Positions 9,174 to 55,135 of a DNA stretch of 64,000 nucleotides are shown here, one piece after another. This stretch comes from Catellatospora bangladeshensis (GTDB lineage: Bacteria; Actinomycetota; Actinomycetes; Mycobacteriales; Micromonosporaceae): contig NZ_BONF01000011.1 in the NCBI RefSeq assembly GCF_016862575.1, positions 248,001 through 312,000 on the forward strand, written 5' to 3'. The notes below the pieces were generated by a model. The model saw nothing but the letters and a program-made list of their open reading frames with translations, had not been told where the DNA came from and did no database searches. A program made the translations under genes and the position numbers. Each line of letters begins with the position of its first letter. Position 1 is the stretch's first letter.

Positions 9174-9256
9174 CCAAGATCATCCGACTTGCCTGGCACC
9201 TGGGCGTATCTTGAGCGCGCTTTCGCCCACTTGCCAGGCAAGTTGGACGATCTTGG
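9174..9256. repeat. 75-bp GATC-to-GATC palindromic element, copy A
   Basis: Core 9178-9252. Arms contain ACTTGCCTGGCA and TGCCAGGCAAGT, framed by CCAAGATC and GATCTTGG. The centre has CTGGGCGTATCTTG then CTTTCGCCC. Same core length (75 bp) as the copies at 16679-16753 and 55055-55129. It lies between the convergent VOC and sugar-kinase genes and occupies most of the 209-nt gap. Confidence 0.85.
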
Positions 9257-9266
9257 GCGGGCCACG

Positions 9267-9311
9267 CAAGTTGGACGATCTTGGCTTGCGACACGAGACG
9301 GACGATCTTGG
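9267..9311. repeat. Two solo or chimeric arms of the palindromic element families
   Basis: CAAGTTGGACGATCTTGG (9267-9284) repeats the right arm of copy A. Then GACACGAGACGGACGATCTTGG-type sequence (9290-9311) joins the GACACGAGAC arm of the 61-bp family to the GGACGATCTTGG end of the 75-bp family. Confidence 0.7.
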
Positions 9312-9338
9312 CGTCGGGCAACGGGCGATGTGACGGCG

Positions 9339-10259
9339 TCAGGTGCCGGACCGGGCGGCGGCGATACGGGCGGCGCCCACCTCGCCCGGGCCCGCGGTGA
9401 CCGTGGCGGTGCCGGGCAGGTGGTGGGCCAGCAGCCGGATCACCGCCTCGCGCACCGGGCGGGAGCCGCCCAGCACGCTGCCCGCCAGCACCACCGGGCC
9501 GTCCGCGTGCACCTCCACGACGGTGTCCACCAGGTGCGCGGCACAGCGTTCGACAAGCGCGGCGGCCTGCGGGTCGCCGGCCTCGGCGGCCTCGGTGACC
9601 AGGGGCGCGAGCCGGGACAGGTGGCGCGGCTCCTGGTCGTGCAGCGCGCCGATCAGGTCGTCGGCGGCCTGCCGGGACGCGGCGGCAGGCAGCACGCCGA
9701 GCACGGCCGTCGCGACGGCGCGGGTCAGGTGCCCCTCGGGGACGCGGGAGTACAGCTCACGGGCAGTCAGCGCGGCCGCCTCGCGGCCCAGCCAGAACCC
9801 GGAGCCCAGATCGCCGAGCAGCCAGCCGATGCCGTCCGCGCTCGCCGTCATCACCCCGTGCTCGATGCGCGCCGCGATCGCCCCGGTGCCGGAGATCAGC
9901 ACCGTGCCGCGCGGCTCGGGCGTGCCGGCGGCGTACGCCACCTCGACATCACCGACCGGCCGCACCGGCACCAGAAGCCCCAGCTCCGCAAAGGCGGTCT
10001 CATAGGCGGACGCAACGGCGGGGTCGGTGAACCGGCCGGTCCCCGCGATGCCCATCACCGCACAGCGCACCTCAGCAGGGTCGAGGCCGGTCAGGGCCGC
10101 CCGGACGGCGTCCGACACCGCGGCCACGGCCTCGGGCAGCGGCACCGAGACCGGGTTGCCGGCGCCCGCGCGGCCGAAGCCGGCGCGGGCGCCGTCGAGC
10201 GTGGTGATCAGCGCCCGTGACGACGTGCCGCCGACGTCGAGGCCGAGGACGAGGGTCAC
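9339..10259 (-). CDS. BadF/BadG-type sugar kinase, probable N-acetylglucosamine kinase
   Basis: 306 residues from GTG at 10259, chosen for the AAAGGA ribosome site 9 nt upstream. The ASKHA ATPase fold is clear: phosphate-1 loop LGLDVGGTSSRALI at the N-terminus, phosphate-2/adenosine motifs VLISGTGAIAAR and GIGWLLGDLGSGFWLGREA, and VVLAGSVLGGSRPV near the end. Members of this family phosphorylate GlcNAc in the cytoplasm. Its place as the last gene of an RpiR-SIS-NgcEFG operon supports GlcNAc (or GlcNAc released from chitobiose) as substrate. Only 42 nt separate it from the GH16 gene, so it is cotranscribed. Confidence 0.88.
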   Translation of the reverse strand: MTLVLGLDVGGTSSRALITTLDGARAGFGRAGAGNPVSVPLPEAVAAVSDAVRAALTGLDPAEVRCAVMGIAGTGRFTDPAVASAYETAFAELGLLVPVRPVGDVEVAYAAGTPEPRGTVLISGTGAIAARIEHGVMTASADGIGWLLGDLGSGFWLGREAAALTARELYSRVPEGHLTRAVATAVLGVLPAAASRQAADDLIGALHDQEPRHLSRLAPLVTEAAEAGDPQAAALVERCAAHLVDTVVEVHADGPVVLAGSVLGGSRPVREAVIRLLAHHLPGTATVTAGPGEVGAARIAAARSGT

Positions 10260-10301
10260 GGGCGCTGATCCTTTCACTTCATCGGGACCGGGTCGACTGC
10301 G

Positions 10302-11528
10302 TCAGCAGCGGCCCAGGTCCTCCCACTGCACGGTCCAGCCGGGCTCGCTGCCCTGAGTCCACCACTTGGCGCGCCACAGGTGCACGCCGTCGCCGGACTT
10401 CGGGCCGCTGGGGTTGCCGTTGGCGCTGCGCTCCCACTTGACCTGCTGGCCGGTGGTGTAGACGCCGCTGATCGTCCAGGTCGCCGCGTTGGCGCAGCCG
10501 GTGCCGCCGGTCGGCGGGGCCGACGGGGACGGCGAGCTGCTCGGCGGGGCCGAGGGCGACGACGAGGGCGGGGTGCTCGGGCCGGTAGACGGCGAGGCGG
10601 TGGGGCAGGTGCCGCCGCCGGTGCCGACGGTGTCGGTGTGCGCCACGTTCTGCGCCCGGTACGAGCCGACACGGGTGTTGACCTGCGCCGGGGTGAGCAC
10701 CTCGTTCTGCGAGTACAGCACGTAGTCGACCTGCTGGCGGTAGGTCGACATGCCGCCGGTGTGCGCGGCCGCGTCGATGAACCACAGGTTGAAGTTGATC
10801 GACATGTTCGTCTCGGGGTAGTAGATGCCGCTGTGGTCGGCGACCAGGTTCCCGTCGATGTAGTACTTCACGTGCCCGGCCGAGACCGTGAACACGAGGT
10901 CGTGCCAGCCCGCGAACGACTGCCGCTGCTCGCCGTGGGCGTTGACGGCCTCCCACGGGTCGGGGCGGTAGGTCTCCCACGTGGTCTCGTACATGATGTT
11001 CGACGGCTCGCCCCACCCGCCGTTGGGCAGGTACTCGAAGTCGATCTCGCCGTAGTTCGGGTCCATCGGGGCGGCCAGCGGGGTGATGGTGAAGAACGTC
11101 TCCACCAGGTGGTCGCCGTCGTTGCCGGAGACCGGCGCGTCGGTGAACTTGACCCGCGCGGCGTAGGTGCCCTCGAAGAACTTCTGCTGGTGGTACAGCT
11201 CCGCCTGGCTGGTGCCGCCGGCCGTGCCGTCGGTGGACGCCTGCAGCTGCAGGGACTTGGCGCCGTCCACGGTCGGGAACGAGACGTTGCTGGTCGGCCA
11301 GGAGGCACCGGGGATGCCGGGGCCGCCGGAGTAGGTGCGCACCGTCCAGCCGCGCTGCTGGATCAGCGGATCGCTCGGCCCGCTGTAGCTGAAATCGTCG
11401 AACAGGGCGTTGCAGGTGGCCGCCGCGGCGGACGCGGTGGTGCCCGCGGTGAGCGCGACCAGCGTGCCGGCGGTGAGCGCCAGTGCGGTGGCGCCGAGCG
11501 CGGCGACGATGGGACGTCGGAGGGACAC
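10302..11528 (-). CDS. Secreted GH16 glycoside hydrolase with CBM5/12-type chitin-binding domain
   Basis: 408 residues from GTG at 11528 with GAAAGGAG upstream. Order: signal peptide (1-34, ending TASAAA), GH16 beta-jelly-roll catalytic domain (about 40-285), Ser/Pro linker (about 308-342) and a C-terminal chitin-binding module (about 345-408; WTISGVYTTGQQVKWE, AKWWTQGSEPG). The GH16 catalytic motif E-I-D-F-E is intact at residues 161-165 (nucleophile E161, acid/base E165). GH16 enzymes usually cleave beta-1,3- or beta-1,3/1,4-glucans. A GH16 core on a chitin-binding module fits attack on fungal walls, where chitin and glucan are interwoven. It is embedded between the GlcNAc importer and kinase genes. 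Confidence 0.9.
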   Translation of the reverse strand: MSLRRPIVAALGATALALTAGTLVALTAGTTASAAAATCNALFDDFSYSGPSDPLIQQRGWTVRTYSGGPGIPGASWPTSNVSFPTVDGAKSLQLQASTDGTAGGTSQAELYHQQKFFEGTYAARVKFTDAPVSGNDGDHLVETFFTITPLAAPMDPNYGEIDFEYLPNGGWGEPSNIMYETTWETYRPDPWEAVNAHGEQRQSFAGWHDLVFTVSAGHVKYYIDGNLVADHSGIYYPETNMSINFNLWFIDAAAHTGGMSTYRQQVDYVLYSQNEVLTPAQVNTRVGSYRAQNVAHTDTVGTGGGTCPTASPSTGPSTPPSSSPSAPPSSSPSPSAPPTGGTGCANAATWTISGVYTTGQQVKWERSANGNPSGPKSGDGVHLWRAKWWTQGSEPGWTVQWEDLGRC

Positions 11529-11570
11529 TTGTTTCTCCTTTCGGGGTGGCGGACTACGGTGGGTGGCACC

Positions 11571-11605
11571 CCCGGGTGCGCCGCGTGAGAGGCGGCGCAC
11601 CCGGG
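11571..11605 (-). terminator. Very strong 14-bp hairpin inside the amino-sugar operon
   Basis: CCCGGGTGCGCCGC (11571-11584), 7-nt loop, perfect complement at 11592-11605. It lies in the 202-nt gap between ngcG (ends 11731) and the GH16 gene (starts 11528), 43 nt upstream of the GH16 start. It may be a partial terminator or an mRNA-stabilising hairpin that uncouples hydrolase from transporter expression. Confidence 0.65.
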
Positions 11606-11730
11606 GCCTGGTGCCCCGTGGGTCCGTTGGTGCGGGAGGTGCCTTCTTGCGGGCACGGTCGAGCACGCCGAGAAGCACGTTCTCCCCGAGTTCGGCGTCT
11701 GCGCCCGCCCGTGCGGTCTGTGGTGTGGTG

Positions 11731-12540
11731 TTACTTGAGGGCGCCGGAGGTCAGCCCGGCGCGGATCTGCCGCTGGAAGAAGACGTACGCGAGCAGCACC
11801 GGCAGGATCGCGATGACCAGCCCGGCGAACAGGCCGCTCCAGTCGCTGCGGTAGCCCTGGCTCACTGCCAGCTCGGCGAGGCCCTGAGCCAGGACGTAGT
11901 GGTCCGGGTCCGGGTTGAGCACCTTCGGCAGCAGGTACTGGTTCCACAGGCCGAGGAAGTTGAAGATGCCCACGCTGACCATGCCCGGCCGGGCCATCGG
12001 CAGCATGACCTTGAAGAACACCCCGGCGTGCGAGGCGCCGTCGATGAACGCGGCCTCGGCGACCGCGCCCGGCAGCGAGCGGAAGAACCCGTGCAGGAAG
12101 AACACGGTGAACGGCAGGGCGTACGCGGCGTACACGAGGATCAGCCCGTGGTACGTGCCGAGCAAACCGAGGTTGTCCACCACGAAGAACAGCGGCACCA
12201 GCGCGAGGAACACCGGGAACAGCATCCCCGCCACCAGCAGGTAGTAGATGAACCGGTTGCCCGGGAACTCGTAGCGGGCCAGGCAGTACGCCGTCAGCGC
12301 GCCGAGCAGCATGGTCAGCGCGAGCGCGCCGCCCACCACGATCAGCGTGTTGAGCAGGTACTGCCCGATCGAGGCCTGGTCCCAGGCGCGGGACCAGTTG
12401 TCGAACCGGAGCTCGGCCGGCGGCGTCCACGGGCTGTCGAAGATCTCCGCGTCGGTCTTGAACGACGACATGAAGGCCCACAGCAGCGGCAGCGTCACCA
12501 GCGCGGCCCACAGCGTCAGCACGGCGTGCTTGATCCTCAT
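11731..12540 (-). CDS. ngcG: Sugar ABC transporter inner-membrane permease (NgcG-like)
   Basis: 269 residues. MalG-type permease of the CUT1 carbohydrate importers: six predicted helices, N-terminal HAVLTLWAALVTLPLLWAFMSSF, and the cytoplasmic EAA loop EAAFIDGASHAGVFFKVMLP that docks the ATPase. It overlaps the ngcF gene by 4 nt (ATGA). No ATP-binding subunit is encoded nearby, as expected for actinobacterial CUT1 systems that share a distant MsiK ATPase. The substrate call (GlcNAc/chitobiose) rests on the strongly NgcE-like binding protein and the flanking genes. Confidence 0.9.
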   Translation of the reverse strand: MRIKHAVLTLWAALVTLPLLWAFMSSFKTDAEIFDSPWTPPAELRFDNWSRAWDQASIGQYLLNTLIVVGGALALTMLLGALTAYCLARYEFPGNRFIYYLLVAGMLFPVFLALVPLFFVVDNLGLLGTYHGLILVYAAYALPFTVFFLHGFFRSLPGAVAEAAFIDGASHAGVFFKVMLPMARPGMVSVGIFNFLGLWNQYLLPKVLNPDPDHYVLAQGLAELAVSQGYRSDWSGLFAGLVIAILPVLLAYVFFQRQIRAGLTSGALK

Positions 12541-13412
12541 GCCAGCTCCACCCGCTCCCGCTTGGTGACCCGCAGCAGCAGCACCGCGATGGACAGGGTG
12601 AGGAAGAAGATCGCCACCCCCATGGCCGAGGCGTAGCCGAACTTCCCGAAGGCGAACGCGGTCCGGTAGAGGCCCAGCCCCATCACCTCGGTGCTGTTGT
12701 CCGGGCCGCCCGGCCCGACCGTCATGATCTGGACCAGGGCGAACCCGTCCAGCGCCGCGATGCCCAGGTAGATCCAGCCGACCTGCACGCTCTCCCAGAT
12801 CAGCGGGAGCGTGATCCGCCGGAACACGGTCACCGGCCCGGCCCCGTCGATGGCCGCGGCCTCGACGATGTCCTCCGGCACCGACTCCATCGCAGCCGAG
12901 AACAGCACCACGTAGAAGCCGACCGACGACCAGATCAGCACGATCATCACGCACCACAGCGCCAGGTCCGGCTCGGCCAGCCACGAGCGCCGCCACGAGT
13001 CCAGGCCCACCGCCGACAGCGCCCCGTTGAGCAGGCCGCTGTTGGGGGTGTACACGAACTGCCAGAGCACCGCGATGATCGCGACGCTGAGCAGCTGCGG
13101 GAAGAAGTACACCACCCGGTACACCCTGGTGCCCTTGGTCGCGGCGGCCAGCGCCAGCGCGATCGCGATGACGGCCAGCGGCACGACAAGCAGCATCAGC
13201 CCGTTGTGGCGCAGCCCCGCCAGGAACAGCGGGTCACTCCACAGCCTGCCGAAGTTGTCCAGCCCGGTGAACTCCGGGGCGCTGTCCACGCCGTTCCAGT
13301 TCGTGAACGCGAGCTGGAACGCCTGCAGGTACGGCGACAGGACGAACACGCCGTACAGCGCCAGGGGCACGATCAGCGCCCCCACCAGGAACCGGTACTT
13401 GCCGTGCCGCAT
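12537..13412 (-). CDS. ngcF: Sugar ABC transporter inner-membrane permease (NgcF-like)
   Basis: 291 residues, MalF-type CUT1 permease. The N-terminus (YRFLVGALIVPLALYGVFVL) and the loop LAFTNWNGVDSAPEFTGLDN are typical. The EAA motif is EAAAIDGAGPVTVFRRITLP, with about six transmembrane helices. It begins 6 nt after the stop of the binding-protein gene and overlaps ngcG by 4 nt, so the three are translationally coupled. It should form a heterodimeric channel with NgcG, with ATP supplied by an unlinked MsiK-type subunit. Confidence 0.9.
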   Translation of the reverse strand: MRHGKYRFLVGALIVPLALYGVFVLSPYLQAFQLAFTNWNGVDSAPEFTGLDNFGRLWSDPLFLAGLRHNGLMLLVVPLAVIAIALALAAATKGTRVYRVVYFFPQLLSVAIIAVLWQFVYTPNSGLLNGALSAVGLDSWRRSWLAEPDLALWCVMIVLIWSSVGFYVVLFSAAMESVPEDIVEAAAIDGAGPVTVFRRITLPLIWESVQVGWIYLGIAALDGFALVQIMTVGPGGPDNSTEVMGLGLYRTAFAFGKFGYASAMGVAIFFLTLSIAVLLLRVTKRERVELA

Positions 13413-13418
13413 GGCCCC

Positions 13419-14810
13419 TCACCGCTTGTGCTTGACGATGGAGCTGTCCTTGGCGACCGCGTCGGCGGCCTTCTGCACGCGCTCGGCCCACTGCTGCGGG
13501 TTGATGCGCTTGGTGGCCAGCTCGCCCGTCGCGTCGTCGACCGCCTTCGACAGCGGCGCGTACCAGGTGCGGAACTTGTAGCTGAACACGTTCGGGCCGG
13601 CCGCCTTGACCGCCTCGGCCACCGAGCCCAGGCCGCTGGTCAGGGTGAGCCCGTCGGTGGCGCCGGTGACCACCGGCAGCGCCTTGGCGCTCTCGGCGAA
13701 GCCGCGCGCGACCTGCTTGGAGAACAGGTAGCGCAGGAACTCCAGACCGCCCTGCGGGTTCTTGGCCTTCGCGGGCACCAGGAACGACTCGCTGCTGGCG
13801 GCCATCACCGCGCCGTTGGGCAGCTTGTCCGAGCTGGTCAGCGCGGGCACGGTCGCCATGACCATGTCGAACCCGGCCGGGGTGACCTGCTGCTGCTCGC
13901 CCTCCAGCCAGGAGCCGCACGGGATGAACGCCACCTGGCCCTTGCACCACGCGTTCTGCGCCTCGGTGTGGGACAGGCCCTCCGAGCCGGGCAGGATGTG
14001 CCCGCGTACCGCGAGCTGGTGGATCGCCTCCGCGGCGGCCACGACGGCGGGCTGCTGCCACGCCCCGGCCTCCAGGTTGTCGATCGCCTTGACCGCCTCG
14101 ACGCCGCCGGCCTTGGCGGCCATCGACAGCAGCGGGTCGTTCAGGTACTCCGGGTACTTGCCCTGCCAGGTCCAGGGGGCCAGACCGGCCTTCTTGATCT
14201 CGTCGTTGAGGGTGAGCATCTCCTCCCACGTCTTGGGGAAGGTCCACCCGTGCTTGGCGAACAGCGACTTGGAGTACCAGACGCCCCACAGCACCGACGA
14301 GTAGTTGAGCACCAGCGGCTTGCCGTCGAACGTGCCGTCCTCGATCACGCCCGGCATGAGCGTGTCGCGTACCTTCTTGCCCGGGTCGTCCACGGCCGGG
14401 GCGTCCAGCAGCTCGGTCAGGTCCTTCAGCTTGCCCGCCGAAACCAGGGTGGCCAGGTCGAGGCGGCCCGCGCCGCTGTTGTCGACCACGTCCGGCGGGC
14501 TGTCGGCCACGAACCGCGGCTGCAGCACCTCGCCCACGCCCTGGATGCCCTTGTGGTCGATGGCGACCTTCGGGTGCTTCTCCTTCAGCCGGGTCCCGGC
14601 GTCGATCGCGTACTGGTCGCCGTACCCACCCTTGAAGATCACCACTTCCAGGCCGGCGTCGGCCGGCACGCCCAGCGGGTTCTCCGCGCTGACGTCGCCC
14701 TTGCCCGCGCCCTCGTTATCGCCGCCACCACCGGTGGCGCAGGCGGCCAGCGTGGTGCTCGCCGCTGCGGCAGCCGCGCTGAGCAGCGCGCCGCGTCTTG
14801 TAAGGTTCAT
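13419..14810 (-). CDS. ngcE: N-acetylglucosamine/diacetylchitobiose-binding lipoprotein (NgcE-like)
   Basis: 463 residues from ATG at 14810 with GAAGGG upstream. The signal peptide carries paired Arg (NLTRRGALLS) and ends in a lipobox LAAC, so it is a membrane-tethered solute-binding lipoprotein, possibly Tat-exported. The mature sequence closely follows Streptomyces NgcE as I remember it: VVIFKGGYGDQY, NNSGAGRLD-like VVDNSGAGRLDLATL, VWYSKSLFAKHGWTFPKTWE, TWQGKYPEYLNDP, AFIPCGSWLE and the C-terminal DSSIVKHKR. NgcE captures GlcNAc and chitobiose outside the cell. Together with NgcF/G downstream it forms the importer of this operon. Confidence 0.9.
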   Translation of the reverse strand: MNLTRRGALLSAAAAAASTTLAACATGGGGDNEGAGKGDVSAENPLGVPADAGLEVVIFKGGYGDQYAIDAGTRLKEKHPKVAIDHKGIQGVGEVLQPRFVADSPPDVVDNSGAGRLDLATLVSAGKLKDLTELLDAPAVDDPGKKVRDTLMPGVIEDGTFDGKPLVLNYSSVLWGVWYSKSLFAKHGWTFPKTWEEMLTLNDEIKKAGLAPWTWQGKYPEYLNDPLLSMAAKAGGVEAVKAIDNLEAGAWQQPAVVAAAEAIHQLAVRGHILPGSEGLSHTEAQNAWCKGQVAFIPCGSWLEGEQQQVTPAGFDMVMATVPALTSSDKLPNGAVMAASSESFLVPAKAKNPQGGLEFLRYLFSKQVARGFAESAKALPVVTGATDGLTLTSGLGSVAEAVKAAGPNVFSYKFRTWYAPLSKAVDDATGELATKRINPQQWAERVQKAADAVAKDSSIVKHKR

Positions 14811-14844
14811 GATGTCGCCCTTCATGCACACAGGGGTTGATGGG

Positions 14845-15579
14845 TTAGGCGATACGCCGGATGCGCCCGGCGTATCGCGCTTCCAACTGCTGGTTGTGCT
14901 CATAGCCGCCGGCGATGTTGGCGGACAGGTAGATCGGCGGGGTCTGACCCGCCTCCTCCAGGCGCCGCACGACCTCGGTGACCACCATCTGGGCCAGCAC
15001 GGCCGCGGTCACCGACGACACGGCGCCGGACTGGTTGGGCATGATCACGTCGCCGTACGGGGCGCCGTTGTCCAGCACCACGTCGGCGATCTCGGACAGC
15101 CGCTTCCCGGACGGGTGGCGCGGCTGCGACTGCGCGGTGTGCGCCAGCGACGTCACCGCGATCAACTGGTGGCCCTTCTCCTTGATGAGCAGGGCCAGCT
15201 CGACCACCACCCCGTTGATGCCGGAGTTGGAGGCCAGCACGAACACGTCCGCGGGCTGGATCGGGGCCAGCTCGTAGAGCCGGTGCGCCACCTCGGTGCG
15301 CCGCTCCAGCAGCTGGTCCTCCAGCACCTCGCGCGGCTCGCCGCCCCACAGCACGATGTCGCGCAGCGCGATGCGGTTCGTCGGCACCAGGCCCCCGGCC
15401 CGGCCCGCGATCTCCATCGCGAGCGCCTCGGAGTGCCCGCTGCCGAACGCCTGCACCACGCCGCCCGCGTTCAGGCTCTCCGTGATCAGGTCGGCGGCCC
15501 GCTGCACGTTGGCGGCCTGCCCGGTGCCCACCTTGCCCACCAGCTCGGTGATGGCTTCCAGGTACGTCTGCGCGTTCAT
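14845..15579 (-). CDS. SIS-domain phosphosugar-binding protein (UPF0309 type)
   Basis: 244 residues from ATG at 15579. A single sugar-isomerase domain: ESLNAGGVVQAFGSGHSEAL near 40, then PADVFVLASNSGINGVVVEL near 115. This matches UPF0309 SIS proteins that sit next to GlcNAc transporters and kinases in actinobacteria. It probably binds or isomerises an amino-sugar phosphate such as GlcNAc-6-P, but no deaminase-type signature is visible, so the reaction is uncertain. It lies 34 nt upstream of ngcE and 40 nt downstream of the RpiR gene, within the operon. Confidence 0.87.
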   Translation of the reverse strand: MNAQTYLEAITELVGKVGTGQAANVQRAADLITESLNAGGVVQAFGSGHSEALAMEIAGRAGGLVPTNRIALRDIVLWGGEPREVLEDQLLERRTEVAHRLYELAPIQPADVFVLASNSGINGVVVELALLIKEKGHQLIAVTSLAHTAQSQPRHPSGKRLSEIADVVLDNGAPYGDVIMPNQSGAVSSVTAAVLAQMVVTEVVRRLEEAGQTPPIYLSANIAGGYEHNQQLEARYAGRIRRIA

Positions 15580-15619
15580 CTCGCTCCTCGTGTTGCTCGT
15601 GGGTTGGCCGCGCGGTCGC

Positions 15620-16534
15620 TCACTCGGCTGCGTCACCGCGCCGCGCGTGGCGGCGCCGGTGCGAGGTCGGCTCGTCGTGCAGCCGGTGTGCCTCCACCGC
15701 CCGCGCGGTGACCTCGAACGCCTCGGTGGTCCGCGCGTACGTCCGCTGCGCCACCGCGACGTAGATCAGATCGACGGCGACCAGCTGCCCGTGCAGCGCC
15801 GACAGCGCCGCCAGCCGGAACGTCGTCTCGTGCACCGCCGTGGTCAGCACCACGTCGGCGGCCTCGGCCAGCGGCGACTTGTCGAACGAGGTCACCGCGA
15901 CGGTCAGCGCGCCCTGCTCGGCCGCCTCCGCCAGCACCTCGATCACCTCACGGGTGCGGCCGCTGTGTGAGAAGCCGATCGCGACGTCGCCGGGGCCGAG
16001 CAGCGCCGCGTTGGTCAGCGCCTTGTGCGCGTCCAGACGGTGCCAGCAGGGCACCCGGATGCGCTCCAGCCGGAACTGCATCTCCTGCGCCGTGGTGCCG
16101 GAGCTGCCCAGCCCGAACAGCTCCACCCGCTGCGCGCCCGCGATCGCGTCGGCGACCCGCGCCACCTGGGTGAGGTCCAGCCGGGCCGCGGTCTCCTGGA
16201 TGGCGCGCGCGTCGGCGCTGGCGATCACGCCGAGCACGCGGTCCATCGGGTCGCCCGGCTCGATCTCGCGGTCGATGTCGGTCTCCCAGCGCGCCTGCGC
16301 CTCGCGCCCGCTCTCGGTCGCGATCGCCACCCGCAGCGCCGCGTACCCCCGGAAGCCCAGCACCCGGCAGAACCGCGTCACCGTGGCGGTGGAGGTCCCC
16401 GCGCGCTCGGCGAGGTCCACGATGGACGCCTGCGCCGCCAGCGCCGGGTCCTCCAGGATCTGCTCCGCCACCCGCTGCAGCGCGTCAGGCAGGTTCGGCA
16501 GCTCCATCCGCATACGACCGATGACACCCTGCAC
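15620..16534 (-). CDS. MurR/RpiR-family transcriptional regulator
   Basis: 304 residues from GTG at 16534 with GAAGGGGA upstream. The N-terminal HTH_6 domain (PDALQRVAEQILEDPALAAQ, then LAERAGTSTATVTRFCRVLG) is followed by a C-terminal SIS effector domain (RVELFGLGSSGTTAQEMQFR, VAIGFSHSGRTREVIEVL). RpiR proteins sense phosphosugars through the SIS domain. As first gene of the operon it likely autoregulates the whole RpiR-SIS-NgcEFG-GH16-kinase unit through the palindrome just upstream. The last about 25 residues are His/Arg-rich (SHRRRHARRGDAAE), an extra basic tail. Confidence 0.93.
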   Translation of the reverse strand: MQGVIGRMRMELPNLPDALQRVAEQILEDPALAAQASIVDLAERAGTSTATVTRFCRVLGFRGYAALRVAIATESGREAQARWETDIDREIEPGDPMDRVLGVIASADARAIQETAARLDLTQVARVADAIAGAQRVELFGLGSSGTTAQEMQFRLERIRVPCWHRLDAHKALTNAALLGPGDVAIGFSHSGRTREVIEVLAEAAEQGALTVAVTSFDKSPLAEAADVVLTTAVHETTFRLAALSALHGQLVAVDLIYVAVAQRTYARTTEAFEVTARAVEAHRLHDEPTSHRRRHARRGDAAE

Positions 16535-16569
16535 GTGAATTCCCCTTCACCACGATCCGTTGATGAAGA

Positions 16570-16621
16570 AAATTACGATCCACCGTCCACAGTGTCAATC
16601 CCTCACGTCAAAAATTTTGAC
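16570..16621 (-). promoter_or_regulatory. Promoter and probable RpiR operator of the amino-sugar operon
   Basis: On the minus strand TTGACA (16593-16598) is separated by 17 nt from TAATTT (16570-16575), a near-consensus housekeeping promoter. Immediately upstream is the palindrome GTCAAAAATTTTGAC (16607-16621), with perfect 7-bp arms, and an extra TTTTGA half site near 16650. A/T-rich TTTTGA palindromes are typical RpiR targets. This is the most AT-rich stretch in the region. Confidence 0.75.
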
Positions 16622-16675
16622 GCCCCCACCCTCCCAACCCCAGCAATAATTTTGATCACCCGGTCGCGTGTAGAC

Positions 16676-16757
16676 GAAGATCGCCCGACTTGCCTGGCAG
16701 GCGGGCGTATCTTGGGCGCGGATAAGCCCAGGTGCCAGGCAAGTCGGGCGATCATGG
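16676..16757. repeat. 75-bp GATC-to-GATC palindromic element, copy B
   Basis: Core 16679-16753, arms GATCGCCCGACTTGCCTGGC and its exact complement (21-bp perfect arms). Same orientation and length as copy A. It lies between the amino-sugar operon promoter and the 3' end of the glycosyltransferase gene. Confidence 0.85.
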
Positions 16758-16769
16758 CGCCCGCGGCGG

Positions 16770-18170: not shown

Positions 18171-18221
18171 CTGTCGCCCTCCCTGTCCGGTTCGCAGGGG
18201 CTAACGAGCCAGGGCACGAAG

Positions 18222-28797: not shown

Positions 28798-28858
28798 GAT
28801 CGCCGTCTCGTGTCACAAAGTGCAGCCAGACCACAGGTTGTGACACGAGACGCCGATC
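28798..28858 (+). repeat. 61-bp GATC-to-GATC palindromic element, copy A
   Basis: Left arm GATCGCCGTCTCGTGTCAC, loop with AAAGTGCAG and CCACAGGTT, right arm GTGACACGAGACGCCGATC. Arms are 19 bp with one mismatch. It starts about 40 nt after the metG stop. Confidence 0.88.
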
Positions 28859-28901
28859 ATCGGTCGTCACGACCAGCGCCCCGGGGAACGGTCGGCCCCA
28901 T

Positions 28902-28962
28902 GATCGGCGTCTCGTGTCAGAAAGTGTGGCTGGACCGCAGGTTTGGACACGAGGCAGCGATC
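28902..28962 (+). repeat. 61-bp GATC-to-GATC palindromic element, copy B
   Basis: Left GATCGGCGTCTCGTGTCAG, loop AAAGTGTGG ... CCGCAGGTT, right GGACACGAGGCAGCGATC. Same length and orientation as copy A, 43 nt away from it, forming a tandem pair between metG and the Sap/GAP gene. Confidence 0.85.
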
Positions 28963-48205: not shown

Positions 48206-48207
48206 CG

Positions 48208-48834: not shown

Positions 48835-48909
48835 TCACCGGACTGCCGCGGCGGCGCCGTTACGGCTAGCATTCGAGGCCCCGACGGCGCCATACCCCCG
48901 GAGCCCCCC

Positions 48910-50034
48910 ATGACGCGCTCTGCTCGGCTGTTCATCCTGCTCGGCGTGGTGCTGGCCCTGATCGGCGGCGGCGCCTACGCCGCCGTGCGGGTCGCCCAGA
49001 CGCGGGTGGACGAAGCCATCCCCCAGGTCGACCTGTTCGGCCCGAGCGACTCCCCGGAGCCGTCGGCGCCGCCGAGCCCCAGTCCCAGCCCGACGCCCCC
49101 GGCCGGGGCGGACATCACCGGCCCGCTGAACTTCCTCATCGTCGGCATCGACACCCGCGAGGCGCAGAAGGGCTCGCCGCCGCACGGCGACGTGGTGATG
49201 ATCCTGCACGTCGACAAGACCCTCAGCAACGCGTACCTCACCTCGCTGCCCCGCGACCTGCTGGTGGACATCCCGGCGTTCAAGCCGTCCCGTTACGGCG
49301 GCGGCCGCAGCAAGCTGACCCACGCGATGACCTTCGGCGGGCGGGTGCCGGGCAAGAGCGGCACCTGGAACATCGCGCAGGGCTTCCAGCTCATGGCCAA
49401 GGCGGTAAGCGGGTACACCGGCATCAAGCGCTTCGACGCGGGCGCGGTGATCACGTTCCGCGGCTACACGAAGCTGATCGACGCGCTGGGCGGCGTGGAC
49501 CTGTACGTCGACCAGAAGGTGGTCTCCATCCACCGCCGCCCGGACGGCGTGCACCGCGCCGTCTGCCGCGGCTGCGAGCACGGCTACTCCGGGCCGCGCA
49601 TGACCTACAACGTCGGCACCCGGCACCTGACCGGCTGGCAGGCGCTGGACTACGCGCGCCAGCGCTACACCACCGGCGGCGAGTACACCCGTCAGCGCCA
49701 CCACCGGCAGCTGATGAAGGCCATGCTCACCAAGGCGCTGAGCCGGGACGTGCTCACCGACCCGGCGAAGTTCGACGGCATCGTGGCCGCGCTGGGCGCG
49801 ACGCTGACCTTCGACGGCCGCGGCCGCAAGCCCACCGAGTTCCTCTACGCCCTGCGCAACATCCGCCCCGCCAACCTGACCCTGACCGGCATGCCCGGCG
49901 GCGGCGTCTTCACCGGCGGCGGCTACCAGGGCGAACGCCTCGACGCCGTGCAGAAGACCTACTTCGCGGCCCTGCGCGCCGACACCCTCGCCGCCTGGAC
50001 CAAGTCCCACCCCAAACTCGTCAACACCCGCTAG
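48910..50034 (+). CDS. LytR-CpsA-Psr family cell-wall polymer ligase
   Basis: 374 residues. A transmembrane start (LFILLGVVLALIGGGAYAAV), a Pro/Ser linker (about 45-70) and the LCP domain from about 75: PLNFLIVGIDTREAQKGSPP, SDVVMILHVD-like GDVVMILHVDKTLSNAYLTS, LPRDLLVDIPAF, DYARQRYTTGGEYTRQRHHR with the conserved Arg residues. LCP enzymes attach teichoic-acid-like or glycan polymers from lipid carriers to peptidoglycan outside the membrane. TAGCAT (48867-48872) is a likely -10 box, with CGGAG before the ATG. A palindromic element follows the stop. Confidence 0.94.
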   Translation: MTRSARLFILLGVVLALIGGGAYAAVRVAQTRVDEAIPQVDLFGPSDSPEPSAPPSPSPSPTPPAGADITGPLNFLIVGIDTREAQKGSPPHGDVVMILHVDKTLSNAYLTSLPRDLLVDIPAFKPSRYGGGRSKLTHAMTFGGRVPGKSGTWNIAQGFQLMAKAVSGYTGIKRFDAGAVITFRGYTKLIDALGGVDLYVDQKVVSIHRRPDGVHRAVCRGCEHGYSGPRMTYNVGTRHLTGWQALDYARQRYTTGGEYTRQRHHRQLMKAMLTKALSRDVLTDPAKFDGIVAALGATLTFDGRGRKPTEFLYALRNIRPANLTLTGMPGGGVFTGGGYQGERLDAVQKTYFAALRADTLAAWTKSHPKLVNTR

Positions 50035-50036
50035 CG

Positions 50037-50088
50037 AAAGGAAGGGCACCTTCTTAACGCTATGCGTATAAGAAGGTGCCCTTCCTAA
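50037..50088. repeat. GAAGGGCACCTTC palindromic element, copy 6
   Basis: GAAGGGCACCTTCTTAACGC, then TATGCGTATA, then AGAAGGTGCCCTTCCTAA. Inverted form, 3 nt after the LytR-family stop and upstream of a co-directional GNAT gene. Confidence 0.87.
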
Positions 50089-50151
50089 CCTCCGCGGAGC
50101 GGCGGCGTAGCGTGGCGCTGGTCGCGTGGGTACGGGGTGGAAGGCGGGAGC

Positions 50152-50679
50152 ATGGTGCAGCAGGTGGCGGTGCGGGCGGCGGGGCCGGGCGACGTGGCGG
50201 CGGTCGTGGCGCTGGTCGAGTCGGCGTACCGCGGCGACAGCAGCCGGGCCGGCTGGACCACCGAGGCGGACCTGCTCGACGGCCAGCGCACCGATCCCGA
50301 GGCGGTCGCCGCGCACGTGGCCGCGCCCGGCAGCGTGATCCTGCTGGCCGAGCGCGACGGGGAGCTGCTGGCCTGCTGCCACCTGGAGCGCCACGACGGC
50401 TACGCCTACTTCGGCATGTTCGCCGTGCGCCCCGACCTGCAGGGCGGCGGCCTCGGCAAGGCCGTGATCGCCGAAGCCGAGCGTTACGCCAGCGCCGAGT
50501 GGGGCGTGCCGCAGCTGCACATGACCGTGATCACGGTCCGCGCGGAGCTGATCGCCTGGTACGAGCGGCGTGGTTACGCCCGCACCGGGCAGACCAGCCC
50601 GTTCCCGTACGGCGACGAGCGCTTCGGCCTGCCCCGGCGCGACGATCTCGAATTCGAGCTGCTGGTCAAGAAGCTCTAG
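50152..50679 (+). CDS. GNAT-family N-acetyltransferase
   Basis: 175 residues from ATG at 50152, preceded by GGAAGGCGGGAG. GNAT motifs in order: VAVRAAGPGDVAAVVALVES, YAYFGMFAVRPDLQGGGLGK with the acetyl-CoA loop QGGGLGK, and ELIAWYERRGYARTGQTSPF. It probably acetylates a small amine. TAGCGT near 50107 may be its -10 box. Its TAG stop overlaps the TAG stop of the convergent hydrolase in the shared sequence CTAG. Confidence 0.92.
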   Translation: MVQQVAVRAAGPGDVAAVVALVESAYRGDSSRAGWTTEADLLDGQRTDPEAVAAHVAAPGSVILLAERDGELLACCHLERHDGYAYFGMFAVRPDLQGGGLGKAVIAEAERYASAEWGVPQLHMTVITVRAELIAWYERRGYARTGQTSPFPYGDERFGLPRRDDLEFELLVKKL

Positions 50680-51467
50680 GCGAACCACTCCTTGAGCACC
50701 GGCGCGACCGCCTCCGGCTTGAGCAGGTGCGTCTGCCCCGGCAGCGTGCGGTACTCGGCCTGCGGCAGCGCCCCGGCCAGCGCCTTGGCGGCGTTGCGCA
50801 TGTACTGCGGGCTCTTGCCGCCGTCCATGACCAGCGCGGGCAGCTGCGCCCCGGCCCAGCGCTGCGCGTTCAGCGGCCGTCCCGCGCCGGTGTCGCCGAG
50901 CACCCGGAAGTCGTAGGGCAGCGTGTGCGCGACCCGCTTCAGCTTCGGCCAGTTCGGCATCAGCCGGAACAGCGCGACCAGGAAGGCGGGCATGCCGACG
51001 GTGCGCATGAACGTGGCGACCGCGTCCCCGCGCCGCCCCTGCGCGATCATGGCGTCCATCCTGTCCAGGTAGTCGTCCGGGCGCGGCTCGTGCGTGCCGT
51101 CGACGATGAACGGCGGCTCGTACACGGCCAACTTGCGGATGCCGCCCAGCCGCGCGGCGGCGTCGCAGGCCAGCACCGCGCCCGACGAGATGCCGTAGAG
51201 GTAGACGTCGCCGCCCGCCTCCTTGATCAACGCGTCCAGGTCCTCGACCTCGCGCTCGACGCTGTAGGGCGCGGTGTCGCCGGACTCGCCACGGCCGCGC
51301 CGGTCGTACGTCCACACCGTGAACCGGTCGGCGAGCTGCCTGGCCAGCGGCCCGGCCGGGCCCATCCGCCGGAAGCACATCGCCCCGTCGACCAGCACGA
51401 CCGCCGGGCCCTGCCCGATCCTCGTGTACGCGATCGCGGTGCCGTCCGCGGAGATGACGCTGCTCAT
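50676..51467 (-). CDS. Alpha/beta hydrolase
   Basis: 263 residues from ATG at 51467 (GAAGGAG upstream). Fold features: GTAIAYTRIGQGPAVVLVDG, YDRRGRGESGDTAPYSVERE, nucleophile elbow GISSGA with Ser94, acid-loop PALVMDGGKSP and His in LPGQTHLLKP. Homologues are common next to ArsR/SRPBCC pairs in actinomycetes. It is the third gene of that operon, 17 nt after the SRPBCC gene. Reaction unknown. Confidence 0.9.
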   Translation of the reverse strand: MSSVISADGTAIAYTRIGQGPAVVLVDGAMCFRRMGPAGPLARQLADRFTVWTYDRRGRGESGDTAPYSVEREVEDLDALIKEAGGDVYLYGISSGAVLACDAAARLGGIRKLAVYEPPFIVDGTHEPRPDDYLDRMDAMIAQGRRGDAVATFMRTVGMPAFLVALFRLMPNWPKLKRVAHTLPYDFRVLGDTGAGRPLNAQRWAGAQLPALVMDGGKSPQYMRNAAKALAGALPQAEYRTLPGQTHLLKPEAVAPVLKEWFA

Positions 51468-51484
51468 GGGGTGCTCCTTCGAAG

Positions 51485-52225
51485 TCATGCCGCGAACGTC
51501 CGGTCCAGCCAGGACCGCCACGCCGCATCGGGATCGGGTTCGGTGGGGGTGAACAGGTGGTGCATGGCCAGCATCGAGCCCTGGAAGCCGCGCACGAAGC
51601 GCAGCAGCGCGTCCGGGGTGCGCACGCCGAGCGCGTGGGCGCTGACGTGGTAGACCGTGCCGGTGAGCGCCGCACCGCCCACGGTCGGCGTGACCGGGTC
51701 GCCGGGCCGGGGATCGTGGGCCAGGCCGAGCGCGCCGTGCAGCGCCGTCCAGGCCCGCGGCCAGTCGGCCACCGGCGGCCCGAACACGGTGACCGGCCGG
51801 GCCGTGCGGCCCCGGAACCAGGTCAGATACTCGCCGAGGGTGCCGTAGAACAGGGCCAGTCCCAGGCCCATCGCCTCGAACTCGTCGGCCCAGTCGTCGC
51901 CGGGCAGGAAACCACTGGTCACGGTACGCAGCACGGCGCTGCCGCCGGCCCGTGCCTCGATGAGGAACTCGTACGCCACGAACCGGCCGTCGGCGTCGGG
52001 CGGCTCACCGTAGGCCAGCCGCCGTCCGGGCTCCCACGCCGTGATCGGCAGCGTCGGGGCGTACCCACCGAAGACGGTGCTGACCGCACCGTCCGGTCCG
52101 GGCGCCACCTCGTTGCGGCCCATGAACCACGAGTCGATGCCGGGGCCGGTCGCGATCGCCGCCCAGATCTCCTCGGGGGTGGCCTCGACCGGCAGGTCGT
52201 GCCGGACCTCGAAGTCCCTGCCCAT
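51485..52225 (-). CDS. SRPBCC (AHSA1/START-like) domain protein
   Basis: 246 residues. The AHSA1-type helix-grip fold is visible: FEVRHDLPVEATPEEIWAAI at the start, GPGIDSWFMGRNEVAPGPDG, ITAWEPGRRLAYGEPPDADG and FEAMGLGLALFYGTLGEYLT. A further about 90 C-terminal residues form an additional domain. Such proteins bind hydrophobic ligands and are typically paired with an ArsR regulator. Here they are separated by only 1 nt, so the pair is translationally coupled. Confidence 0.9.
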   Translation of the reverse strand: MGRDFEVRHDLPVEATPEEIWAAIATGPGIDSWFMGRNEVAPGPDGAVSTVFGGYAPTLPITAWEPGRRLAYGEPPDADGRFVAYEFLIEARAGGSAVLRTVTSGFLPGDDWADEFEAMGLGLALFYGTLGEYLTWFRGRTARPVTVFGPPVADWPRAWTALHGALGLAHDPRPGDPVTPTVGGAALTGTVYHVSAHALGVRTPDALLRFVRGFQGSMLAMHHLFTPTEPDPDAAWRSWLDRTFAA

Positions 52226-52226
52226 C

Positions 52227-52823
52227 TCAGTCCTCCTCCGCCTGGCGGGTCACGCTCGGGTGCACGGCGACGATCACCCGGTGCTCGCGCCCGCCCTCGG
52301 CCCGCTCGTCGTGATACTTGCTGACCAGGCCCGCGACGGCCGACGCCAGCTCCTCGGCGAACGCGGCCCGGTCGGCCGGGCTCGCGAACCGGACCGTGCC
52401 GTCCATCGCGAACGTGGCCAGCCGCTTCTTCGCCCGCGCCGCGCCGGTGAGCAGCTCGCCCACGTCGCGGACCAGGCGCGCGGCCAGGGCCAGCAGCCAG
52501 CGCGCGGACAGCCGGTCGGGGGCGCGGCCGGGGTCGGGCTGCACCGCGGACAGCGCGATCGGGGAGATCACATAGGACGCGGCGGTGGCCTGGAGCACGC
52601 GCTCGGTGACGTTGCCCTTGCGGCGCTCCTCCACCAGCTCGACCAGCCCGTGCCGCTCCAGCTCGCGCAGGTGGTAGTTGACCTTCTGCCGGGGCTGGCC
52701 GATCTTCGCGGCCAGGGTGGTGGCCGAGCCGGGCTCCACCAGCGCGGCCAGCAGCCGGGCCCGGATCGGGTCCAGCGACGCCTCGGCCGCGGCCGGATCG
52801 TCGATCACCGCAACATCGAACAT
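52227..52823 (-). CDS. ArsR-family transcriptional regulator
   Basis: 198 residues from ATG at 52823. Winged helix: LDPIRARLLAALVEPGSATT, LAAKIGQPRQKVNYHLRELE, RHGLVELVEERRKGNVTERV. No Cys-rich metal site is visible (no Cys at all in the HTH region), so it probably does not sense metal. The C-terminal about 110 residues are a helical extension. It is the first gene of the ArsR-SRPBCC-hydrolase operon, with a leaderless promoter whose spacer contains a GACAA/TTGTC palindrome suited to autoregulation. Confidence 0.92.
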   Translation of the reverse strand: MFDVAVIDDPAAAEASLDPIRARLLAALVEPGSATTLAAKIGQPRQKVNYHLRELERHGLVELVEERRKGNVTERVLQATAASYVISPIALSAVQPDPGRAPDRLSARWLLALAARLVRDVGELLTGAARAKKRLATFAMDGTVRFASPADRAAFAEELASAVAGLVSKYHDERAEGGREHRVIVAVHPSVTRQAEED

Positions 52824-52829
52824 GCCCAC

Positions 52830-52858
52830 ACCCTGCCACCGACAAATTTTCTTGTCAA
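52830..52858 (-). promoter_or_regulatory. Leaderless promoter and operator of the ArsR operon
   Basis: Minus strand TTGACA (52853-52858), 17-nt spacer, CAGGGT (52830-52835), then 6 nt to the ATG. The palindrome GACAAATTTTCTTGTC (52841-52856) overlaps the -35 box and spacer, in a sharply AT-rich pocket. Confidence 0.75.
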
Positions 52859-53040
52859 GCCCCCACCTGCGATCCGGCAGCCCTCGCGCACGGCGCGACA
52901 CCTCACCCGCGCGCCCCGGCCGCAGCGCGGAAACGGACGAACGCGACAGCCCGGAGTCCCCGCACCTGACGAAGGTCAGAAATCCCACAGCAGATCAGGA
53001 ATCAGGCGAACCCGCCTCCACCCGGCGTTAGCGTCGAGGC

Positions 53041-53850
53041 ATGACGAACCCGATCGCCGATATCAGCGTGCCTGAACTCGCCCGGCAGATCGCGCAGCTG
53101 GAGCGTCAGGACGTCGACCGCGGCGCGCTCGACGTGTGCACCCTCACCATGGAACTGCGCCACCAGTACCGCCGCGCCCTGCTCGCCCGCGACCAGGCGG
53201 CCCTGTCCCTGGTCGCCCGCGAGCGCTGGACCGCCGCCGACGTCGCCGAGGTGATCTGCGGCCACCGCTCCTGCGCGCCCCGTGCCGCGGTCATCCTCGA
53301 CTGGACCGGCCTCACCCCGGACGGCGGCACCGAACGCGACCTGGCCGAACGCCAGCTCGTCGCCACGCAGCTGCGCGAGCTGCTGTCCCTGGCATACGAC
53401 AAGGCGCTGCGCCTGCTGCCCGCGGCGCGCATCGGCACCGGCCTGCCCGACGACCCCCAGGAGCGGCTGGCGCAGACCGCCCACTGGCTGCGCTTCGTCG
53501 ACGGCTACCGGGCCGCCAACCAGGCCTCGCGCATCCTGTTCGCGGCGATCCTGGTGCACCACCACGGCTGGCCGCTGCCCGACGTGGCCGAACTGGGCGC
53601 GGTGACGCCCGACGAGATCCGCGCGGCACTGGCCGCGGCCGAGGCCAGCCCGCCGTCCGATGCCGACAGCGGCCTGCTCGCGCAGCTCGCACTGCTGGAC
53701 CGGGTCCTGGAGACGAACACGGAACGGCTGCTGGCGGTCCGCGAGCGGGCCCTGTCCGACAGCCTCGCCGACGGCGTGCCCGAGCGGGTCGTCGCGGCCC
53801 ACATCGGCCTGCCGGAGCACGAACGCTCCGCCGCCCACTGCCCCGCCTGA
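53041..53850 (+). CDS. Conserved hypothetical helical protein
   Basis: 269 residues from ATG at 53041, 6 nt after TAGCGT (53029-53034), so probably leaderless. The protein is soluble and almost entirely helical and charged. Blocks such as RERWTAADVAEVICGHRSCA and VTPDEIRAALAAAEASPPSD look like short helix-turn-helix-type segments, but no domain is recognised. A run LPDDPQERLAQTAHWLRFVD precedes RAANQASRILFAAILVHHHG. Function unknown. The strong codon bias and promoter support a real gene. Confidence 0.75.
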   Translation: MTNPIADISVPELARQIAQLERQDVDRGALDVCTLTMELRHQYRRALLARDQAALSLVARERWTAADVAEVICGHRSCAPRAAVILDWTGLTPDGGTERDLAERQLVATQLRELLSLAYDKALRLLPAARIGTGLPDDPQERLAQTAHWLRFVDGYRAANQASRILFAAILVHHHGWPLPDVAELGAVTPDEIRAALAAAEASPPSDADSGLLAQLALLDRVLETNTERLLAVRERALSDSLADGVPERVVAAHIGLPEHERSAAHCPA

Positions 53851-53858
53851 CCGGCGCC

Positions 53859-53909
53859 AAGAAGGGCACCTTCTACTACGGAATCCGATGAGAAGGTGCC
53901 CTTCCTTTC
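53859..53909. repeat. GAAGGGCACCTTC palindromic element, copy 7
   Basis: AAGAAGGGCACCTTCT, centre ACTACGGAATCCGATG, then AGAAGGTGCCCTTCCTTTC. It fills the 60-nt gap between convergent genes. Confidence 0.87.
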
Positions 53910-53910
53910 G

Positions 53911-54372
53911 TCACAGGGGTTTGGCGTAGCAGACGGAGAGGTCCCAGCGGTCGTAGGGCGGGTAGTTCGGGATGCGGGTGAAGCCCGCGCGCTCGTAGAC
54001 GGTGATCGCGTCGGGCTGGCGCACGCCGGTCTCCAGTTTGAACAGGCGCGCGCCGGTGCGGGCGGCCAGCTTCTCCGCCTCGGGCATGAGGCGGCGGGCG
54101 ATGCCGCGGCCGCGCCAGGCCGGGTCGACGTACATCCGCTTGAGCTCGGCCTCGCCGCCGTCCAGCGGCTGCACGGCGCAGCAGCCGATCGCCGCGCCGC
54201 CGGCGAGCACCAGCAGGAAGCGGGCAGCCTGCCTGACCTGCGGATGCTCGAAGTCGATCTCCTCGGGGTAGCGGGCGTCCAGCTCCGCGCGCAGCGCGGC
54301 GATCAGCGGCGCCAGCCGCGGATCCTCCGGCGCCACCTCGGCGATCTCGATGGTGGTGGTGTCCGTGCCCAT
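53911..54372 (-). CDS. GNAT-family N-acetyltransferase
   Basis: 153 residues. Motifs: IEIAEVAPEDPRLAPLIAAL, ELKRMYVDPAWRGRGIARRL with the acetyl-CoA loop RGRGIARR, and GVRQPDAITVYERAGFTRIP. The substrate is unknown. Its ATG overlaps the TGA of the TetR gene by 1 nt (TGATG), so the two are translationally coupled and the acetyltransferase should be controlled by that regulator. Confidence 0.93.
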   Translation of the reverse strand: MGTDTTTIEIAEVAPEDPRLAPLIAALRAELDARYPEEIDFEHPQVRQAARFLLVLAGGAAIGCCAVQPLDGGEAELKRMYVDPAWRGRGIARRLMPEAEKLAARTGARLFKLETGVRQPDAITVYERAGFTRIPNYPPYDRWDLSVCYAKPL

Positions 54373-54956
54373 CAACGTGCTCCCAGCAGCAGTTCCAGTT
54401 GGTTGTCGACCGCCGCGACCAGCAGGTCCGGCGGGTAGAGGGCGGGCGTGGCCACGCCGCACAGCGCCAGCCCTTCCAGGAAGGCGACCAGCCCGCGGGC
54501 GCGCAGCTCCAGATCAGGCGGGGGTACGGCGTACGCGTCGCGCAGCAGGCCGGTCAGCCGCCGGATCCAGGACTCGTGCCGGACGGTGTGCTCGGCCAGC
54601 ATCACCGGGTCGGTGCGCGCCGCCATCAGGAACGTGGCCCAGATCGTGGAGTTGAGCCGCCGCTCCTCGTCGAGCGGCACCCCCTCCAGCGCCACCGCCC
54701 GCAGCCGCGCCCTCGGGTCGCCGGGGTCGGGCAGCGCGTCGATGCGCGCCGCCATGCGCCGGTGCATGACGGCCCTGGCGTGCAGGAGCAGCGCGTTCTT
54801 GTCGCGGAAGTAGTGCGCGACCCGCCCGGTGGTGCAGCCGGCCGCGTCGGCGACCGCGCGCAGCGTGAGCCCGTCCAGGCCGTGCTCTCCGACCACCTGC
54901 CACACCGCGGCCGACAGCTGCTCGCGCCGCTCGTCATGATCCACCAGCCTCGGCAC
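54372..54956 (-). CDS. TetR-family transcriptional regulator
   Basis: 194 residues from GTG at 54956. HTH: REQLSAAVWQVVGEHGLDGL, TLRAVADAAGCTTGRVAHYF, RDKNALLLHA. The C-terminal domain is a TetR_C_6-like helical bundle (HRRMAARIDALPDPGDPRAR, RLNSTIWATFLMAARTDPVM). It overlaps the downstream GNAT gene. Immediately upstream are two overlapping 16-bp palindromes built from CGTAAC/GTTACG, which should be its own operator. Confidence 0.93.
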   Translation of the reverse strand: MPRLVDHDERREQLSAAVWQVVGEHGLDGLTLRAVADAAGCTTGRVAHYFRDKNALLLHARAVMHRRMAARIDALPDPGDPRARLRAVALEGVPLDEERRLNSTIWATFLMAARTDPVMLAEHTVRHESWIRRLTGLLRDAYAVPPPDLELRARGLVAFLEGLALCGVATPALYPPDLLVAAVDNQLELLLGAR

Positions 54957-54970
54957 GCCTGCCCCCTTTC

Positions 54971-55000
54971 CGTAACACCCGTTACGTAACAGCCGTTACG
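54971..55000. promoter_or_regulatory. Overlapping TetR operators
   Basis: CGTAACACCCGTTACG (54971-54986) and CGTAACAGCCGTTACG (54985-55000) are two CGTAAC-N4-GTTACG palindromes sharing the central GTTACGTAAC (54981-54990), itself a perfect palindrome. They lie 15-44 nt upstream of the TetR start. Confidence 0.8.
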
Positions 55001-55048
55001 CTAACAGCCCCGGGAGCGCCCGTCCAGCAGTGCCCGCGGCCCTCGCCC

Positions 55049-55135
55049 GGCCAAGACCCACCGACTTGCCTGGCATACGGGCGAAAGCGGGCCCAAGATA
55101 CGCCCAGGTGCCAGGCAAGTCGGTGGATCTTGGCC
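55049..55135. repeat. 75-bp GATC-to-GATC palindromic element, copy C (inverted)
   Basis: Core 55055-55129 (left end GACC instead of GATC). Arms CCACCGACTTGCCTGGCA and TGCCAGGCAAGTCGGTGG match each other but differ from the arms of copies A and B. The centre is the reverse complement of the centre in copies A and B. Confidence 0.85.

Follow-up and report, generated by a model that had tools for sequence, protein, structure and literature searches.

Matching arms and conserved bases in a REP-like gene-end palindrome of Catellatospora

Matching changes in the two arms of a hairpin are routinely taken as proof of a functional fold. A 64,000-nucleotide stretch of Catellatospora bangladeshensis DNA (hereafter, the window) holds three copies of a GATC-bounded palindrome whose outer arms differ from copy to copy and mostly still pair. 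The initial annotation, made from the sequence, concluded that this compensatory change was direct evidence that the folded form matters. Does the agreement between arms record selection on base pairing, or is the palindrome held in place by something else? Here, we address this question with copies from the window's own genome (8.83 Mb, 115 contigs) and from relatives in the same genus.

RESULTS

Three copies of one palindrome in the window

The 75-bp cores were recovered at 9178-9252, 16679-16753, and 55055-55129, and the stem words ACTTGCCTGGCA and TGCCAGGCAAGT were present in all three. Similarity between copies reaches about 4 bp past GATC at either side, giving an element of 83 bp. We call this element family A; the letters A to H are our labels for hairpin families, given by script from short motifs. 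Its features in the window are as follows.

9174..9256, + strand: family A copy 1, TATCTTG centre on the + strand; between convergent stops, those of a glyoxalase-like gene (end 9129) and a BadF-like ATPase gene (end 9339)
9187..9198, + strand: copy 1 left arm core ACTTGCCTGGCA; partner at 9232-9243, - strand
9202..9213, + strand: conserved asymmetric centre GGGCGTATCTTG of copy 1
9261..9312, + strand: two additional pieces that resemble the right arm and end in GGACGATCTTGG, immediately behind copy 1
16675..16757, + strand: family A copy 2; lies about 12-16 bp past the - strand stop (16770) of a gene that encodes 466 aa and has no Pfam match; an rpiR-type regulator gene (15620-16534) follows
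16688..16699, + strand: copy 2 left arm core; partner at 16733-16744, - strand
16703..16714, + strand: centre of copy 2
55051..55133, - strand: family A copy 3, centre on the - strand; about 21-24 bp behind the stop at 55158 (- strand) of an alpha/beta-hydrolase gene
55064..55075, + strand: copy 3 arm core; partner at 55109-55120, - strand
55094..55105, - strand: centre of copy 3

The element has polarity, as the initial annotation stated: copy 3 carries the centre of copies 1 and 2 in reverse complement. The stem described there as invariant is so in these three copies but not in the family, where TTGCC-W-GGCA has a variable middle base that lacks a pairing partner in 15 of 95 copies (one G.T included). 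Likewise, the outer-arm letters are as first written and do match in copies 2 and 3 (copy 3 with GACC against GATC at one end), but copy 1 carries one A.C mismatch and one G.T. Words within two mismatches of the stem word occur 15 times in the window, compared with a mean of 3.9 and a maximum of 10 in shuffled sequence (0 of 100 shuffles reached 15). Predicted folding energies of the three copies lie between -55 and -62 kcal/mol, with z scores of -8.8 to -10.6. At the place in the relative G006 that corresponds to 9261-9312, most of the stretch (29 columns) is missing and one piece ending GGACGATCTTGG is left.

A fixed layout, confined almost entirely to one genus

In total, 95 unique full-length copies (48 from the own genome and 47 from named relatives) aligned without gaps over 87 columns. 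The consensus arm is approximately CWW-GATC-RYYSR-ACTTGCCWGGCA, repeated in inverted form around an asymmetric centre (GKGCGTATCTTG...TTCGCCC). Each arm thus consists of GATC, five variable letters, and the core ACTTGCCWGGCA, the invariance of which is partly a matter of choice because many of the 95 copies were retrieved via exact arm words. Three free letters per side separate the cores from GKGCG...CGCCC, and TATCTTG stands on one side of the centre only. The five letters after the left GATC were most often GTCCG (26/95), ATCCG (13/95), or GCCCG (12/95). Length is fixed: arm-to-arm distance was 57 bp in 43 of the 43 exact-arm own copies listed, with the gap always 33 where 30-45 was permitted (52-69 bp), and 43 of 44 orthologous pairs between the own genome and G006 were equal in length.

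The expectation of many genomic copies held, with a covariance model detecting family A at no fewer than 139 distinct places in the own genome and at least 133 in G006. All 11 Catellatospora genomes matched this model (at least 30 matches each), and exact-arm copies were present in 7 of the 11, numbering from 0 to 46 per genome (43 in the own genome). Elsewhere in the Micromonosporaceae, 3 of 139 genomes matched, with 1 to 4 matches apiece. An exact-pattern scan of 84,980 named species returned 47 stretches, 46 from Catellatospora and one unrelated hairpin. This one hit outside the genus, in a betaproteobacterial MAG (L044, position 6794), was rejected because it has a similar core word with other arms. 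Similarly, what looked like an 850-bp transposon in the own genome (C16:7726-8558) proved to be two complete family A elements behind two genes. A published description of family A was not found in the searched, mostly freely available literature on REPs and palindromic repeats in Actinobacteria, Micromonospora, Salinispora, and Catellatospora.

Family A lies just behind stop codons

Gene context was assigned for 104 copies (41 own, 47 named loci, 7 from G006, and 9 from other blocks), with genes predicted by our own codon-usage script rather than a published gene finder. Forty-eight copies were in convergent gaps, 41 in co-directional gaps, and 10 in divergent gaps, while 4 were at stretch edges and 1 overlapped a predicted gene end. 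Background intergenic gaps of at least 100 bp were distributed as 117 convergent, 344 co-directional, and 206 divergent, so that convergent pairs are favoured (binomial p = 2e-12) and divergent promoters avoided (p = 2e-6). The flanking stop was no more than 64 bp away in 79 of the 89 copies having one, nine copies overlapped the annotated stop codon end by 3-6 bp, and 32 of the 41 co-directional copies were closer to the stop than to the next start. The location at gene ends that the initial annotation raised as a possibility is therefore borne out. Polarity relative to the gene was mixed (25 opposite, 16 same). At least one of the ten divergent-gap copies, in G006, adjoins an inserted element. 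In G006, the counterpart of own C11:222890-223500 has a family A copy next to an inserted element that, judged by appearance, is probably of the IS605 OrfB type. A GC-rich hairpin behind a stop codon is a feature of intrinsic terminators that family A shares; a T-run after the hairpin was absent in the three window copies.

Resident copies are conserved in place and base by base

For 45 own copies, both flanks could be matched in G006; family A was present at the same place in 44, and the 45th was a misplaced extraction. The gene in front of copy 3 was aligned in eight genomes and has family A behind it in seven, even with a different neighbour, G003 being the genome without. Origin by segmental duplication with shared flanks, considered at the outset, does not account for the copies: flanks of different copies are unrelated.

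We compared 41 orthologous pairs of the same orientation and equal length between the own genome and G006. Constrained positions (arm cores, GATC, and the TATCTTG motif) had changed at 30 of 1,804 sites (1.7%), compared with 163 of 738 (22%) at free positions inside and beside the element; most of the compared copies had been picked because their arms were close to the consensus or their scores high, so core change is understated. A small set from the C11 block, in which every copy was taken, is exempt from this choice and gave 8/264 constrained versus 22/108 free changes in six same-orientation pairs (p = 2e-7). Per-site change was 0.018 for one GATC and 0 for the other, 0.022 and 0.012 for the two cores, and 0.020 for GGGCG. 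The centre stretch GGGCGTATCTTG was also slow to evolve, and the TATCTTG motif was conserved in the unpaired loop (6/287 changed, 0.021). The three-letter spacers beside the cores changed at 0.26 and 0.22 per site and positions just outside the element at 0.20-0.22. Hairpin-free intergenic DNA changed at 557 of 8,298 sites over 48 regions (0.067), a value biased low by counting only regions that BLAST aligned throughout. The spacers (columns 27-29 and 57-59 of the 87) thus differ between the two genomes at 22-26%, above this 6.7%. Given the slow change at constrained positions, resident family A copies appear to be under base-level purifying selection.

These comparisons bear on whether family A is a MITE or REPIN, a non-autonomous mobile repeat that owes its spread to a transposase and its conservation to transposase recognition. 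Dispersal in both orientations, fixed size, inverted ends, a symmetric REPIN-like layout, and the overlap with stop codon ends would all suit such an element. However, its copies stay at the same places in G006, and their fixed bases are conserved in place, which mere spread does not require. Among the copies read, there were no solo arms and no longer element sharing family A ends; a shared short target duplication in the flanks, looked for by eye, was not seen; and a clean empty site was not found among the compared loci. The own genome and four others of the genus have no TnpA-type (Y1) transposase by PF01797, although 6 of the 11 genomes have one to three, and a RAYT-driven REPIN is accordingly unsupported. 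We regard this mobile-repeat explanation as unlikely.

Distribution along the chromosome

An alternative reading makes family A a DNA-binding site for chromosome organisation, recognised by gyrase, a nucleoid protein, or a segregation protein, with gene ends as merely tolerated landing places. Consistent with this, the palindromic word of the arm is kept irrespective of pairing, and density in G006 is even except for about 1 Mb round the antipode of dnaA: only 5 of 133 copies were located beyond 3.3 Mb from dnaA, compared with 30.9 expected. Against it stand the strong gene-end preference and the absence of replication strand bias (60/133). Moreover, the gap opposite dnaA seems not to be specific to family A. 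Sampling 600 kb round the antipode in G006 yielded 1 A, 4 D, 3 F, 1 C, 1 H, and 46 unlabelled hairpins, whereas family D has 189 exact copies in the 8.6 Mb of this genome. The control for this comparison measures family A poorly, since the non-terminus sample included a block chosen for A copies, and an HMM detected A in none of ten other 20-kb core stretches. The scarcity of family D weakens the idea that A is kept out of the terminus as an organising signal of its own and makes it more likely that the gap is younger DNA that the repeat families have yet to enter, the simplest reading. Between about 4.85 and 6.7 Mb of G006, A and D are scarce, whereas the frequency of unlabelled hairpins matches that of the core sample. 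Regular spacing was not found (gap coefficient of variation, 1.19; 250-kb counts near random), and 500-kb counts of A were more uneven than random. A role in chromosome organisation consequently seems improbable.

Little covariation of the arms, and a fully matched minority

If the arms compensate because the fold matters, variable positions should pair more often than in shuffled arms. Over 95 copies, Watson-Crick pairing at these columns was close to that of shuffled arms, and the inference drawn from compensatory change in the three window copies is not supported. Watson-Crick counts at the four variable outer pairs were 47 (44.4 in shuffles), 47 (40.8), 54 (58.5), and 67 (63.5). The single strongly deviating pair belongs to the inner stem (69 versus 51.5); it reflects species groups that differ in having G-C or T-A there and does not deviate significantly within the own copies or within the others. 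Among the 41 orthologous pairs, double changes numbered 12 against 10.6 expected, and pair-breaking (22) and pair-making (19) changes were balanced.

Counting G.U as paired in a 66-copy alignment gave a weak positive signal, with 82.8% paired versus 81.8% in shuffles (3 of 500 shuffles) and covariation of 0.104 versus 0.086 (2/500), or 0.287 versus 0.227 (2/500) over the outer five pairs. Part of this signal arises because one inner pair differs between species: without it, pairing was 83.0 versus 82.6 (87/500) and covariation 0.094 versus 0.084 (17/500). The remainder is consistent with a minority of copies matched at every outer position. All four outer pairs were matched in 22 of 95 copies, against 9.2 expected, while mean pairing was 2.26 versus 2.18. 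After removal of seven orthologues, 19 of 88 copies were fully matched (9.0 expected; 0 of 3,000 shuffles reached this value), although selection of copies with both cores exact may favour matched ones. Such all-or-nothing matching suggests copying of whole arms rather than base-by-base compensation. With shuffle-level outer pairing and so few double changes in excess, we rejected the idea that the arms match mainly through compensatory evolution. A structured RNA under base-pairing selection, for which the very strong predicted folding, the weak G.U-counted covariation, and the excess of fully matched arms all speak, is the explanation we hold least probable, given the outer-pair counts, the balance of changes between orthologues, an arm-centre base that lacks a partner in either species in 15 of the 41 pairs, and an Rfam search of the window at gathering thresholds that returned 0 matches.

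Centres flip between species

Inversion of the centre, which the initial annotation raised as a question about strains, does occur between species. Orientation was the same in 42 of 44 orthologous pairs between the own genome and G006 and inverted in two (copy 3 and L090:1268). Two more flips were found in other species pairs (L055/L189 and L282/L028), making four distinct flipped loci. At copy 3, the centre runs opposite to its counterparts in G006, vulcania, and paridis; since these three agree, the change happened in the window's lineage. Descriptively, at each of the four loci, one copy of the two has a long uninterrupted matched stretch.

From the matched arms and the flips together, we infer that the compensatory look and the flipped polarity are by-products of template switching between arms: during replication, such switching would copy one arm onto the other and could invert the centre. 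The fully matched minority and the two inverted centres in 44 pairs both fit this process. Over-dispersion of multi-base changes in the variable blocks was not detected, which indicates that most of the change has a source other than template switching.

Other hairpin families occupy some of the same gene ends

At the copy 2 locus, 11 genomes carry different hairpins: family A in two (own and G006), family B in five (G001, G002, G003, G004, and G010), a shortened B in G005, and family C in three (G007, G008, and G009). The family B hairpin of G001 (L102) at this locus is split by an inserted element. The centre of family C (GAATCCGGCYCAAGATTC) resembles that of family A, while the stems differ. 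At one locus (L045 versus L035), a plain hairpin stands in place of family A.

In a 190-kb block of the own genome, 33 hairpins scored 15 or more, compared with 2 in a single Markov-shuffled control. Of 22 convergent gene ends whose gaps measure 40-99 bp, 18 carried a hairpin of score 12 or more. Before room for a hairpin was required, hairpins were common to the same gene ends across species. Once it was required, the significance of such sharing between families was mostly gone: the association was weak (16/5/9/10, p = 0.06) for any of six genomes and gave p = 0.03 for G004 alone. Dispersed gene-end hairpins were also seen in the own C11 and G006 blocks and in the window (for example, 50039-50086, 60681-60724, 5950-5989, and 63411-63455); they include families D (GAAGGGCACCTTC..., 44-50 bp) and E (AAGCTCCCGCC...). 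Family F, with CTCGTGTC arms, occurs at window positions 28831-28929.

DISCUSSION

We favour the reading that family A is a genus-specific, REP-like gene-end hairpin that acts as a terminator or 3' barrier and whose fixed bases are recognised by a putative factor, and we give this a probability of about 0.5. The transcript would form a strong hairpin, effective in both directions, at the end of the transcription unit. A candidate host protein may recognise, as DNA or as RNA, the two TTGCC-W-GGCA palindromes, the GATC ends, and the TATCTTG centre. More speculatively, and in our judgement doubtfully, Catellatospora might mark its gene ends with several palindrome families, each having its own host factor; a factor on TTGCC-W-GGCA or TATCTTG would end transcription or protect 3' ends, and such protein-dependent cassettes, exchangeable between families, would slowly replace plain hairpins in the old chromosome core.

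With more than 100 copies per genome, family A offers a case in which arm agreement looks largely mutational and selection seems to act on particular bases, unpaired ones included. Its orthologous resident copies suggest that a REP-like repeat can be kept where it is by purifying selection and not by spread alone, a point relevant to whether repeats of this kind are selfish or serve the host. These loci are also a tractable set for studying transcription termination in high-GC actinobacteria that lack T-run terminators.

Neisserial DNA uptake sequences are likewise conserved words repeated throughout a genome and often inverted at gene ends. Family A differs in keeping a whole 83-bp layout that includes the centre, and it is not known to act in uptake. 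With intrinsic terminators of high-GC bacteria, family A shares a hairpin soon behind the stop, and relatives have other hairpins at the same ends; unlike them, it is conserved in sequence over more than 100 copies and has a long stem, a large structured centre, and no T-run. Template switching homogenises the arms of inverted repeats and inverts their spacers, according to PMC8604942, and can yield multibase compensatory mutations, according to PMC8794818. Switching at quasi-palindromes is a mutation process rather than an element family, and it accounts for the matched arms and flips of family A but not for its conservation.

The closest likeness is to REPs and REPINs, with which family A shares two conserved inverted words round a spacer, a fixed size, a hairpin, an extragenic location, and many copies. 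According to PMC3733652 and PMC3116915, REPs lie mostly between convergent and co-directional genes, near stops. PMC3733652 describes a GTAG or CGTC tag at one end, outside the pairing, and contains no word beginning with Actinobacteria, Streptomyces, or Micromonospora. In contrast to such REPs, the family A consensus lacks GTAG, and its CGTC falls within the paired arm and varies between copies. No single arm is a stem-loop of the REP type, and the genome has no detected Y1 transposase. Finally, the resident copies of family A are conserved in place between species, and the family belongs to one genus.
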